Origin: Thioalkalivibrio paradoxus ARh 1
GTDB taxonomy: Bacteria; Pseudomonadota; Gammaproteobacteria; Ectothiorhodospirales; Ectothiorhodospiraceae
Assembly (NCBI RefSeq): GCF_000227685.2
Contig: NZ_CP007029.1
Location: 2,268,501 to 2,332,500, forward strand
Reading direction: 5' to 3'
Length of the DNA: 64,000 nt
Below the pieces are notes generated by a model. That model searched no databases and was not told the DNA's origin. It was given only the letters and a program-made list of their open reading frames with translations. The position numbers and the translations under genes were made by a program. Below, one piece after another: positions 6,950 through 12,326 of the stretch (its first letter is position 1; each line of letters starts with the position of its first letter).

Positions 6950-7717
6950 TCAGCCGGGAAATACCGCGGCGCGGAGCATCTTGCGGCGCATGTAGGCGAT
7001 CCGGGTCTGCAGGCCCAGGTTCTTCGGGCAGACGTCCTCGCAGCCGAGCAGCGACATGCAGCCGAACACCCCGTCGTCGTCGCCGATCAGCTCGTAGTAC
7101 TCGGCATCGCTGCGCGCATCACGCGGATCCAGCCGCAGGCGGGCGATCCGATTCAGCCCCACCGCGCCGACGAAATCCTTGCGCATGCGCGCGGTACCGC
7201 AGGCGGCCAGGCAGCAGCCGCACTCGATGCAGCGGTCGAGTTCGTAGATCTGCTCGGCGAGTTCCGGCTCCATCCGCTCCTCGAGCCGGCGCAGGTCCAC
7301 ATCCTCCTGCGCATGCACCCAGGCCTCGAGGCGCTCGGTCATCTGCCGCATCCACTTGCCGGTGTTCACCGACAGATCGCCGATCAGTTCGAAGAACGGC
7401 AGCGGTGCCAGTGTGATCCGTTCGCCGAGACTGCCGGTGAGCGTGCGGCAGGCGAGCCCCGGGCGGCCATCGATCAGCATCGCGCAGCTGCCGCAGATGC
7501 CGGCCCGGCAGACGAAGTCGAACTGCAGGCTCGGATCCTGGTGGTCGCGGATGTCGTTCAGCGCGACGAACAATGTCATGCTCGGCGCCTCGTCGACCTC
7601 GAAGGTCTGCAGATGCGGCCGGCTGTCCGGATCCTGCGGGTTATAGCGCAGGATCCGGAGCTGCAGCCTGCGCCCGGTACCTTCCCCGTTCGCCGGGCTC
7701 GCTGCGTTCGCGCTCAT
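6950..7717 (-). CDS. frdB: fumarate reductase iron-sulfur subunit FrdB
   Basis: This 255-residue subunit passes electrons between the flavin subunit and the cytochrome b. The plant-type [2Fe-2S] domain carries Cys70, Cys75, Cys78 and Cys90. The C-terminal ferredoxin-like domain has the CIECGCC and [12 protein letters not shown] clusters for the [4Fe-4S] and [3Fe-4S] centres. The ATG overlaps the frdA stop by 4 bases (ATGA). It is the last gene of the order frdC-frdA-frdB, which is the arrangement of Wolinella-type quinol:fumarate reductases rather than E. coli frdABCD. Confidence 0.93.
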
Positions 7718-9696
7718 GGCAGCCGCTCCGTCAGGCGTTCGTTGCGCCCGCGGTATTGCTCCGGCAGCAGCGCCTCGTACTCCATCAGCGCCGCCTGCCG
7801 CGCGAAACGATCCGCTTCCGGAATGGCCGCGAGGATGCGTTCGACCTCGGCGACGCGCGCCGCGGTATCGGGATGCTCGATGTGGTTGCGTGCACCATAG
7901 CCGCGGAAGCCGGGCGGCAGTTCCATCGTCGTCACGTCGATCTCCTCGTAGCCGATCGTCGGCAGCGTGTCGTCGTCGGATGGCCAGGTCGCGAGCGTGC
8001 GCTTCAGCCAGTCGCGGTCGTCGCGCTGCGGGAAATCCTCGCGAAAATGCGCGCCACGGCTCTCGGTACGCAGGCTCGCACCCTGGGCGACACAGAGCGC
8101 GATCTTCAGCATCTTCTGTACCCGGTAGGCGGCGACGAGTTCCGGGTTCGCCCCCCGGACCCGCGAACGCACGCCGATGTTGCGGCTGCGCGCGAGCAGT
8201 TCCTGCAGTTCGCGGACCGCCAATTCCAGTTCCTCGCCGGTGCGGAAAATGCCGACGCGGTCCATCATCACCTGCTCCATCCGGTTGCGCAGTTCGGTCG
8301 CGCTCTCGCTGCCGCCGCCGTGCAACAACCGGTCGAGCCGAGCCTGCTCGCGCTCCAGGAATTCGCGCACCAGTCCGACCGAAAGACCGGCACCGCCGCC
8401 TTCGGTGTCGCAGAAGTCGGCGACGAACTCGGACACGATCATTCCGGACACCACGGTTTCGGCAACCGAGTTGCCGCCGAGCCGGTTGAAGCCGTGCATG
8501 TCCCAGCAGGCCGACTCGCCACAGGCGAACAGGCCCTTCAGCCCCTGGCTCTGGCCGGTGTGGTCGGTGCGGATGCCGCCCATCGAGTAATGTTGGGTCG
8601 GGCGTACCGGGATCCACTGCTCGACCGGGTCGATACCGAGGAAGTATTCGCAGATATCCTTGACCTCGCGCAGGTTCTTCTCGATGTGCGCGCGGCCGAG
8701 GTTGGTGATGTCCAGCCACAGGTGCTCGCCGTAGCGCGACGGCACGCCCTTGCCCTTGCGCATGTGCTCGGTCATGCGCCGCGACACCACGTCGCGCGAG
8801 GCGAGTTCCTTCTTCTCCGGCTCGTAGTCGGGCATGAAGCGGTGGCCGTCGACGTCGCGCAGCACGCCGCCGTCGCCCCGGCAGCCCTCGGTGGTCAGGA
8901 TGCCGGCGGTGATGATCGCGGTCGGGTGGAACTGCACCGCCTCCATGTTGCCGAGCGGCGCCACGCCCGTCTCCAATGCCAGCGCGACTCCGGTGCCCTC
9001 GCAGATGATCGCGTTGGTCGACACCTTGTAGATGCGCCCGTAGCCGCCCGTCGCGATCACCGTGGCGGTCGCGACGTAGGCCGTCAGTTCGCCGGTGATC
9101 AGGTCGCGCACCACCGCGCCGTGGCAGCGGCCGGCGTCGTGGATCAGCGCCAGCGCCTCCTGACGCTCGAGCACCGGGATGCCGTGCGCGATGGTCTGGT
9201 CGCCCAGCGCGTACAGCATCGTGTGGCCGGTGCCGTCGGAGGTATAGCAGGTGCGCCATTTCTTGGTGCCGCCGAAATCGCGCGCGGTGATCAGGCCATG
9301 CGCCTCGTCCGCCTCGGTGATCGTGACCTTTTCCGCATTGACGACCGACTCGCGGCTGCCGCGCGCGACCCGGCTCCAGGGCACACCCCAGGCCGCCAGT
9401 TCCCGGATCGCCTTCGGCGCGGTGTTCACGAACATGCGCACCACGCGCTGGTCGGCGCCCCAGTCCGAACCGCGAACGGTATCCTCGAAGTGCACGTCCT
9501 CGTTGTCGCCGGCGCCCATCGCGCTGTTGCCCAGGCTCGCCTGCATCCCGCCCTGCGCGGCCGCCGAGTGCGAACGCTTCGCCGGAACGAGGCTCAGGAC
9601 CAGCACATCCCGCCCGCGCCGGCGCACGCCGACTGCGGTACGCAACCCGGCAAGGCCACCGCCAATCACCAGCACATCGGTGTACACGACCTTCAT
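7714..9696 (-). CDS. frdA: fumarate reductase flavoprotein subunit FrdA
   Basis: This 660-residue FAD subunit catalyses fumarate/succinate interconversion at the membrane surface. The dinucleotide-binding motif GGGLAG is at residues 12-17. His43 ([10 protein letters not shown]) is the expected covalent FAD site. Phe141, His257, Arg301 and His369 fall at the positions known for the catalytic residues of Wolinella FrdA, showing a nearly indel-free match to that type. The start ATG overlaps the frdC stop by 4 bases. The direction of catalysis in this organism cannot be decided from sequence; enzymes of this class can work as succinate dehydrogenases too. Confidence 0.93.
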
Positions 9697-10487
9697 GGCA
9701 GCACCTCCCGCGACGCCTGCGCCGCCGGCAGGTCGCGCTCCCAGGTCGGCACATAGCGCTCGCCGGGTGCCCGATCCTCGAGCCCGATCCGGATATAGGT
9801 GCTGAGCGAAACGAGTCCGAGCAGAATGAAGAAAACGATGAAGCCGCGCATCGCCCATTTCAACCGCACCCTCCCCACTGCCGGGTCGCGCGCCGGAAGC
9901 CAGCCCCACTTCACGCCGACGCGGTACATGCCGACCGCTCCGTGTACGACCGCGGTGATCAGCAGCAGCAGGTACAGCGGCCACATCCACTCGCCGACCA
10001 CGCGATCCGACGAGGCGTAGGGGCCGATGTTCGCGGGTTGCGAAAGCATCGTGTACAGATGCACCGCGACCAGAAAGAACAGCGCGAACCCCGTGTAGAT
10101 CTGGACCCACCAGAGCGTCGTGTCCTCGTGGCGCATCACCCTGACGTGATCCCGAAACACTCGGTACTGCCGGTAGCCGTTCGGAAACTTGCGCACCGCC
10201 AGCACCGCGTGTAGCAGCACGATCGCGAGGATGAACGCCGAGAACAACGTGATGATGATCGGATAGGTGTCACCGAAGAAGTAGTAGCCTTCGAAGAAAA
10301 TCGTCACACGGTACATCGCATCCTTGCCCAGCAGGATCGACGCCTCCGCAAACAGGTGCACCCAAAGGAACAGGGCCAGAAACAGCCCCGATGCGCTCTG
10401 CATGAAGTCCAGCCACGCCGGCCAGCGTCCCGTCTCGTGGCGCCCGGTCAGTGCCGCCCCGACCGCCAGTTCGCCCGTCTTGCCCAT
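9693..10487 (-). CDS. frdC: fumarate reductase di-heme cytochrome b subunit FrdC
   Basis: This 264-residue membrane anchor has five transmembrane helices. His44, His93, His143 and His182 sit exactly at the Wolinella heme-ligand positions, so two b hemes are expected. Glu66, the residue known to be needed at the Wolinella menaquinol site, is present. Position 180, which is Glu in the Wolinella enzyme and carries protons in its E-pathway, is Val here (TAVVHG). It is the first gene of frdCAB and is preceded by an Fnr/Dnr-type box and a -10 element at class II spacing. The last roughly 30 residues form a hydrophilic tail. Confidence 0.92.
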
Positions 10488-10550: not shown

Positions 10551-10556
10551 ATGCTA
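10551..10556 (-). promoter_or_regulatory. probable -10 element of the frdCAB promoter
   Basis: TAGCAT on the minus strand, centred 32 bases from the centre of the Fnr/Dnr box at 10579-10592. This is the spacing expected when the activator binds at about -41.5. There is no good -35 hexamer, as usual for class II activated promoters. Confidence 0.6.
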
Positions 10557-10578
10557 GGCCGGAAAACGCCCCTGGGCA

Positions 10579-10592
10579 TTGATCCATGTCAG
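10579..10592. promoter_or_regulatory. Fnr/Dnr-type box upstream of frdCAB
   Basis: TTGATCCATGTCAG matches the family box TTGAT-N4-(G/A)TCAA at all but the last base. It sits 92 bases upstream of the frdC start. The regulator gene in this window (11658-12326) has the ExxSR recognition helix expected for such half-sites. Confidence 0.65.
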
Positions 10593-10761
10593 TGTCCTGG
10601 GGTGCGATCCGCGCGAGCTTCACCGAGCCGTCGCTGCACCGTGACTCGACCCTGGCCCAACTGACCAACCACCTGGCACCCCCGATTCCGTACCGGTTCG
10701 GGCAAGGGGCTTTCTCCTGCATCCCACTTGCGGGTGGCGTACCGCGCTCGGAATCGCCCGC

Positions 10762-10775
10762 TTGATCCGGGTCAA
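10762..10775. promoter_or_regulatory. Fnr/Dnr-type box upstream of the DUF2249 gene
   Basis: TTGATCCGGGTCAA is a perfect TTGAT-N4-GTCAA box. The extended -10 element TGCTAGCGT (10795-10803) has its hexamer centred 32 bases downstream, again the class II geometry. Confidence 0.75.
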
Positions 10776-10934
10776 GGGCAGGTTCGGGTGCTCCTGCTAG
10801 CGTCGGCCTGCCCGCCTCAGGGAGTAGCCCAAGTGACCGGAATCCGTACCCCTCACAGCGAAGACCGCCGGACTCGCGCCGCCGAAATGGCCGACGAGGC
10901 ATCTGCCACCTCCAATCCCATGGGAGCCTGATTC

Positions 10935-11201: not shown

Positions 11202-11657
11202 CACCGGCCAGGGGCTCGGTCGGGGCCAGCGCAGTTTCCCCCGCCCGCTGTGTCTGTTCGGGGTGGAGTTTGCGGGCGTACAGATGAGCGCGGGAGGAGC
11301 CCCTGCAGACTCGCTGGACGCTTGAACAAATTCGCAACCGTCCCGGCGCGAACCCGCACAGGCACTACATCGCCCTTCTCGTCGCTGGCCGACGGCACCA
11401 CCACTCGCCAGTGGGCTTGCCCCAACCGGGCTCCCGTCCGCGTCGGCTCGCCTCAGTGGCCTGCCGCGACCGTCGAATTGATCGCCGCCATGCTGCCGTG
11501 CCTCGTGCGCTGTGAATGTCTTGCCGAAGGCGCTGGGCATGCCTTCGGCCGTCTGCTAGCGTGTGGGCTCCGGAACCTGAACCGCGCCTGGCCACATCCA
11601 GCCTTGTTCCGCAAAGCCGCCGCCATCACGGTCCGAACACCGCCGAAGGAGAGGCCG
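11202..11657. other. intergenic region before the Dnr-like regulator
   Basis: No convincing gene is present in these 456 bases. The right part holds an 8-base inverted repeat (11524-11548) and a TGCTAGCGT extended -10 element ending at 11562. The latter is identical to the one before the DUF2249 gene, but no matching Fnr box lies at the class II distance. Confidence 0.5.
11524..11548. promoter_or_regulatory. inverted repeat upstream of the Crp/Fnr regulator gene
   Basis: CCGAAGGC and GCCTTCGG form perfect 8-base arms around a 9-base spacer, ending 9 bases before the TAGCGT element at 11557-11562. It could be an operator or an attenuating hairpin of the regulator gene; no T-run follows. Confidence 0.4.
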
Positions 11658-12326
11658 ATGTCCGCCGAAGACCCGCTTCAACAGGTGCACCTGTTCGAAC
11701 CTTTGGACGATGCACAACTGGCCCGGATGCGCGAATCGATGCGCGAGTTCCACCTTGCACCGGGGGACACACTGTTTACGCAGGGCGACCCCGCGCGCTA
11801 CTTCTTCCTGATCTGCGTCGGCTCGGTAAAACTGTTTCTGCTGTCCCGCGAGGGCGAGGAGAAGGTGATCGACGTACTGCACGCAGGTGCGATGTTCGCC
11901 GAGGCGGTGATGTTCATGGAGCACCGGAACTATCCGGTCAACGCCGGAGCGCTGACCGAAACCCGCCTGCTGGCGTTCGACAACGAGGTGTTCCTGGGGC
12001 TATTGCGCGAGTCCCCGGATCTGACCCTGCAACTGCTCGGGACGATGAGCCGGCGTCTGCACCAGATGGTTCGGGAAATCGATGAACTGAGCCTGCACAA
12101 TGCGAACTACCGGTTCATCACCTACCTGCTGCAGCAGGAGCGTACCGGTGCGAACCGGGTCGACCTCAACGCCCCCAAACAGGTGATCGCATCGCGACTT
12201 TCGATGAAGCCCGAGACGCTGTCACGGACGCTGTCGAAGCTCCGTGACCAGGGACTGATCCGGGTCAAGGGGGATAGCATCACTTTCCTCGACGAGCCGG
12301 GGATCCGTCGCCTGCTGGAGAGCTGA
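11658..12326 (+). CDS. Crp/Fnr family transcription regulator, Dnr-like
   Basis: This 222-residue regulator has an N-terminal cyclic-nucleotide-binding-like barrel (about 1-120), a dimer helix (about 122-145) and a C-terminal winged helix. The recognition helix contains KPETLSRTLSKL, and its ExxSR pattern is the one that reads TTGAT half-sites in Fnr and Dnr. The N-terminal cysteine cluster of oxygen-sensing Fnr is absent, which points to the Dnr branch (NO sensing through heme in known members). A GAAGGAGAGG ribosome site precedes the ATG. Matching boxes lie upstream of frdCAB and the DUF2249 gene, which are likely targets. Dnr itself is inferred, not proven. Confidence 0.85.
   Translation: MSAEDPLQQVHLFEPLDDAQLARMRESMREFHLAPGDTLFTQGDPARYFFLICVGSVKLFLLSREGEEKVIDVLHAGAMFAEAVMFMEHRNYPVNAGALTETRLLAFDNEVFLGLLRESPDLTLQLLGTMSRRLHQMVREIDELSLHNANYRFITYLLQQERTGANRVDLNAPKQVIASRLSMKPETLSRTLSKLRDQGLIRVKGDSITFLDEPGIRRLLES

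Follow-up and report, generated by a model that had tools for sequence, protein, structure and literature searches.

DUF2249 is presumably the same protein family as COG4309. In 2005, COG4309 was reported to be placed together with the nor genes in the NnrR, NsrR, and DNR regulons (PMC1274295). DUF2249 proteins are described as being induced in the denitrifying archaeon Haloferax mediterranei (PMC11218638), and the same account credits DUF2249 proteins with taking part in the nitrate respiration of Thermus (PMC6282519). In the alpha-proteobacteria, FNR targets and DNR targets have been separated by their co-occurrence with the regulators (PMC2908626), and the profile logic used below is the same. 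Thioalkalivibrio paradoxus, according to one report, has nar, nor, and nos genes and yet cannot use NOx (PMC5328954). A literature search on class II FNR control of fumarate reductase in Thioalkalivibrio found no account of a frdC/DUF2249 promoter pair.

Here we describe such a pair in the soda-lake bacterium T. paradoxus ARh 1 (genome G000 in our comparative set; assembly of 3,756,729 bases). The window, that is, the whole stretch of DNA that was analysed, comprises 64,000 nucleotides (contig NZ_CP007029.1, positions 2,268,501 to 2,332,500). The two promoters share their geometry, which is not proof that they share a regulator, and the comparison of genomes favours Fnr for the frd promoter and DNR for the DUF2249 promoter.

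The Divergent Promoter Pair

The features of the locus are collected in Table 1. The frdC, frdA, and frdB products all match fumarate reductase NCBIfam equivalogs above their cut-offs, in the gene order C-A-B, and we take these equivalogs to be those of the “Wolinella-type” fumarate reductase. A separate sdhA lies on the forward strand at G000:C1:2004356-2006101, and the DUF2249 gene is present in a single copy in the genome.

Table 1. Features of the frd-DUF2249-dnr locus, in window coordinates
Feature	Position	Strand	Basis
frdB, fumarate reductase iron-sulfur subunit	6950..7717	-	NCBIfam NF010071 above cut-off (given 6950-7675), gene call; start codon uncertain
frdA, fumarate reductase flavoprotein subunit	7714..9696	-	NF006383, 1138.7 bits vs cut-off 663 (given 7714-9678), gene call
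frdC, fumarate reductase cytochrome b subunit	9693..10487	-	NF010072, 313.3 bits vs cut-off 187
Putative -10 hexamer TAGCAT, frd promoter	10551..10556	-	Sequence; TANNNT at gap 22-23 in 12/12 same-genus frdC loci
FNR-type box 1, frd promoter: TTGATCCATGTCAG (frd strand, CTGACATGGATCAA)	10579..10592	-	Kept in 12/12 same-genus frdC loci
FNR/DNR box 2, DUF2249 promoter: TTGATCCGGGTCAA	10762..10775	+	Equivalent at gap 22-23 in 12/24 DUF2249 loci
Putative -10 hexamer TAGCGT, DUF2249 promoter	10798..10803	+	Sequence
Hemerythrin (HHE) remnant ORF, 32 codons	10833..10931	+	Alignment to G010, translation
DUF2249 gene, 88 aa	10935..11201	+	PF10006, 2.9e-16; 59.5 vs gathering score 29.5 bits
Membrane-protein gene, degraded piece	11331..11591	+	tblastn with G010 protein: residues 88-176, 36% identity, E 1e-4
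DNR-like Crp/Fnr regulator, 222 aa	11658..12326	+	3dkw, 2.3e-44; PF00027 + PF13545; ETLSR, without N-terminal Cys cluster

Because frdC lies on the minus strand and the DUF2249 gene on the plus strand, the two promoters diverge. The original prediction had described this as a divergent pair with class II geometry; its boxes, -10 hexamers (both of the form TANNNT), and coordinates are all present in the sequence, as is the distance of 32 bases between the centres of box and -10 (a gap of 22 bases), which is identical at both promoters. The window holds two matches to the composite of box, N22, and TANNNT, whereas 100 dinucleotide shuffles of it gave no match at all, and the box alone occurs five times against an expectation of 0.53. 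Box 2 fits TTGAY-N4-RTCAA fully, and box 1 departs from it once, at position 1, where T. paradoxus has a C, so that as an FNR site it is imperfect. Judged from the sequence, the promoter pair is real, conserved, and of a known kind. A further box, at 12255-12268, lies inside the dnr coding sequence and was set aside as coding.

The Same Geometry across the Genome

A genome-wide scan for the same box and -10 geometry had been proposed as a check, and we ran it with the relaxed pattern YTGAY-N4-RTCAR, taking the genes from a codon-usage gene finder trained on the T. paradoxus genome. The 51 boxes found correspond to 102 orientations, and 22 of these are intergenic and no more than 450 bases from a start. 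Among the 22 upstream orientations, five have a TANNNT at a gap of 21-23 bases, and two are found at all other gaps from 8 to 39 (binomial P for the five, about 1.5e-5 to 1.5e-4). The genes behind these five are ccoN (identified by TIGR00780), norC (a 150-aa cytochrome c immediately ahead of norB), nosZ (identified by TIGR04244), frdC, and DUF2249, the gap being 23 at both norC and nosZ. This set of genes supports the compact anaerobic and NO regulon that had been proposed from the window.

With the shorter core TGAY-N4-RTCA and a -10 at a gap of 22-23, the genome holds eight matches, against one for a reversed-pattern control. Four of the eight are again frdC, DUF2249, norC, and nosZ; two lie inside genes, one is followed by no nearby gene call, and one falls in the interval that separates fnr from a divergent gene pair. 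At this last site (G000:C1:1344477-1344517, L197), the box has a TANNNT at gap 22, and the divergent pair, named by eye, resembles the iron-sulfur and flavin subunits of hydrogenase or sulfite reductase. It should also be mentioned that a strong FNR-type box, without a TANNNT at class II spacing, lies 57 bases ahead of ubiU, an O2-independent ubiquinone gene (G000:C1:1699066-1699079, L110).

Two Candidate Regulators

The regulator encoded beyond the DUF2249 gene has its best solved match in DNR of P. aeruginosa; no other Crp/Fnr chain of known structure scored as well. Its recognition helix is ETLSR and its sole cysteine is Cys53, so that it has no Fnr cluster; an ExxSR helix without the Fnr cysteines, in a gene just beyond the promoters, is what had been predicted. 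The protein is presumably NO-responsive. Its gene is under purifying selection when compared with that of G010, a same-genus relative with a genome of 4.0 Mb (dN/dS 0.10). No DNR box that would point to autoregulation was found upstream of dnr in T. paradoxus or G010, and a literature search for the heme-ligand histidine of DNR returned nothing. HTH_Crp_2 has seven matches in the T. paradoxus genome, five of them over the cut-off. A canonical Fnr is encoded at G000:C1:1343642-1344370, with CxxCx5C in the form CDQCSLKLLC, a further internal cysteine in SLC, and the helix ETISR.

Which Regulator Reads Which Promoter

Regulators and targets were compared across 144 genomes, with thresholds of E 1e-30 for a DNR match and E 1e-60 for an Fnr match. 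FrdC was found in 14 genomes, of which 12 belong to the same genus (among G000-G029); the remaining matches are in G032, from another genus, and in G139, where the match is a fragment. In all 12 frdC loci of the genus,.TGAY-N4-ATCAA stands upstream of the start codon, at -105 to -111, with TANNAT at a gap of 22 or 23, and the rest of the upstream region has diverged. The genus consensus of the box is GTGAY-N4-ATCAA (11 of the 12 loci). No such box was found at the FrdC locus of G032 (L025), which is of the same family.

A DNR-like protein is present in three of the 12 frdC genomes of the genus (G000, G010, and G027); the other nine, among which five are 96% complete or more, gave no match. Fnr was matched in 10 of the 12, and the two misses are genomes that are 77% and 80% complete. 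Over the 144 genomes, frdC and DNR are unassociated (DNR in 3 of 14 frdC genomes, Fisher P 0.73). Because the frd box and -10 are found in all 12 genomes and nine of them gave no DNR match, the frd promoter would be independent of DNR in most of the genus. We infer that Fnr is its simplest reader, and frd is most likely an Fnr promoter.

Among the same 144 genomes, DNR occurs in 36, NorB in 23, and DUF2249 in 24, and DNR accompanies NorB in 18 of 23 cases and DUF2249 in 20 of 24. Half of the 24 DUF2249 loci have a box and -10 at a gap of 22-23 (12; 14 when gaps of 24-25 are counted), and at 10 the 1500 bases scanned held nothing that paired a box with a -10 at gap 19-25; the box scan did not extend to L098 and L099, which are second DUF2249 matches. 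Measured from DUF2249, the box stands at -497 to -538 in all but T. paradoxus, where it is at -173, and it usually precedes a hemerythrin gene that heads a hemerythrin-DUF2249-membrane-protein operon. The same architecture was found at the nor operon in all four loci scanned (gap 20-23). By these profiles, the DUF2249 promoter probably fits DNR. Where the E 1e-30 threshold gave no DNR match, as in three of the 12 box genomes (G036, G038, and G040), another regulator may read the DUF2249 box. In four genomes of other families, the DNR and DUF2249 genes diverge from each other at a distance of about 1 kb or less (L083, L089, L087, and L082, from G107, G060, G113, and G133, respectively).

The original prediction had assigned both promoters to the one neighbouring regulator. 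This is probably apt for the DUF2249 promoter but finds no support for frd, whose box is kept in nine genomes that gave no DNR match. The canonical Fnr encoded elsewhere in the genome lay beyond the view that the window affords.

A Reduced Operon behind the DUF2249 Promoter

Downstream of the promoter, G010 has in turn a hemerythrin gene (PF01814), DUF2249, a gene for a 465-aa membrane protein, and dnr. Ectothiorhodospira haloalkaliphila (L001) has the hemerythrin, DUF2249, and membrane-protein genes in the same order, and in L001-L004 the box stands ahead of the hemerythrin gene. The membrane protein occurs in 22 genomes, every one of which carries DUF2249, and DUF2249 is found without it only in T. 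paradoxus and G086. Of the hemerythrin gene, T. paradoxus retains the start region and the stop that adjoins DUF2249, the middle being lost, and no intact membrane protein was found in its genome at E 1e-10. The comparison with relatives indicates that DUF2249 in T. paradoxus is the survivor of an operon that has otherwise lost its structural genes, a decay that fits the report that this organism is unable to use NOx (PMC5328954). The specific physiological context that had been claimed for DUF2249 is real, but it is not new, COG4309 having been reported in NO regulons since 2005 (PMC1274295), and in T. paradoxus it attaches to an operon remnant.

The DUF2249 frame is open and is constrained relative to G010, but less than its neighbours (dN/dS 0.18 vs 0.09-0.10). 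Where 13 of 13 other framed homologues have the near-invariant Glu of the PPEP motif, T. paradoxus has Gly14; this residue was defined from our own DUF2249 alignment, not from a curated definition, and one of the 15 rows (L082) was disregarded because it is not in frame. Three bases separate the end of the hemerythrin remnant ORF from the GTG start of DUF2249, and this ORF could be a leader for coupled translation.

The membrane protein (L027:4641-6038, minus strand; relatives L171-L192) is polytopic, with invariant His65 and His196 in an alignment that used 13 of 24 matches. Neither Pfam nor NCBIfam has a match for it, a search of solved structures with its profile gave nothing at E 1, and hhalign comparisons with NorB (0.3%) and CcoN (5.5%) were not significant. 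An AlphaFold2 model from the single sequence gave a mean pLDDT of 57.7 and a pTM of 0.29. A possible kinship with the heme-copper oxidases is a lead from PMC11218638, which cites Pei et al. 2014.

We advance only tentatively, and with some doubt, the idea that hemerythrin, DUF2249, and the membrane protein make up an NO-handling module, conserved in the gamma-proteobacteria and placed behind a class II promoter of DNR, and that T. paradoxus has stripped this module so that hemerythrin became a 32-codon leader ORF and DUF2249 alone stayed under NO control, functional without its partners. If the module is read in this way, the stripped form would mean that DUF2249 function needs neither partner.

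Proposed Mechanism and Alternatives

We consider it likely that the intergenic region holds two divergent class II promoters, frd being read mainly by Fnr and DUF2249 mainly by the DNR-like regulator, with the operon of the latter reduced and with cross-binding likely. Both would be sigma-70 promoters that depend on an activator and follow the FNR class II type. Their geometry suggests that a dimer of the Crp/Fnr family binds about 41.5 bases ahead of the start and touches RNA polymerase at a weak -10 (TANNNT) that has no good -35. At the frd promoter, mainly the oxygen-sensing Fnr encoded elsewhere would act, giving fumarate reductase under anoxia. At the DUF2249 promoter, the main activator would be the adjoining DNR-like, presumably NO-responsive regulator; this promoter may formerly have driven an NO-handling operon of hemerythrin, DUF2249, and membrane-protein genes and have shared a regulon with the norCB and nosZ promoters, and T. 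paradoxus would since have lost the other two structural genes. Because Fnr and the DNR-like regulator should recognise nearly the same site, cross-binding is likely in T. paradoxus, and because FNR and DNR have their motif in common, the division between them is drawn from co-occurrence only. The NO branch may be idle in T. paradoxus, since it is reported to be unable to use NOx (PMC5328954).

Other readings start from the same boxes. The neighbouring DNR-like regulator could be the sole activator of both promoters, in a single local regulon: its gene adjoins them, both boxes fit the FNR/DNR consensus at identical spacing, and the regulator stands beside frd and DUF2249 in G010 too. However, the frd box and -10 are kept in nine of 12 genomes without a DNR match, and the association of frd with DNR is absent across the 144 genomes, which makes this very unlikely. 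That Fnr alone reads both boxes, with the DNR-like protein serving other genes or being inactive in an organism that does not respire NOx, seems unlikely as well, given how strongly DUF2249 and NorB track DNR and given the purifying selection on dnr; in its favour are the presence of the canonical Fnr, the shared geometry of the typical Fnr targets ccoN and frdC, and the 3 of 12 DUF2249-box genomes without a DNR match. Finally, the boxes might be chance palindromes without function, in a GC-rich genome with 51 relaxed boxes and only 22 of 102 orientations upstream of a gene, but a composite absent from 100 shuffles and conserved at 12 of 12 frdC and 12 of 24 DUF2249 loci renders this extremely improbable.

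If frd indeed belongs mainly to Fnr and DUF2249 mainly to the DNR-like regulator, promoters of the same box and spacing, standing 183 bases apart as these do, can belong to different sensors. The genes ccoN, norC, nosZ, frdC, and DUF2249 offer a small, testable regulon in a soda-lake sulfur oxidiser, and the intact operon of close relatives, beside the stripped copy of T. paradoxus, is natural material for work on DUF2249.

Comparison with Known Systems

The two promoters resemble FNR/ANR class II promoters in having a box of the TTGAT-N4-ATCAA type centred 32 bases ahead of the -10, a likeness read here from sequence only, and differ from them in that the frd box is asymmetric, with G or C at position 1. 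The three subunits of T. paradoxus match the equivalogs of the Wolinella-type quinol:fumarate reductase in the order C-A-B, whereas they occur here in an obligate sulfur oxidiser, one with a separate sdhA in addition. As in the DNR regulon of denitrifiers, so far as PMC1274295 describes it, T. paradoxus has a DNR-like regulator and boxes at norC, nosZ, and DUF2249; unlike those denitrifiers, it is reported to be unable to use NOx, and its hemerythrin/membrane-protein operon has decayed. The hemerythrin-DUF2249-membrane-protein operon itself is found behind the same promoter in G010 and Ectothiorhodospira, whereas T. paradoxus retains DUF2249 alone.
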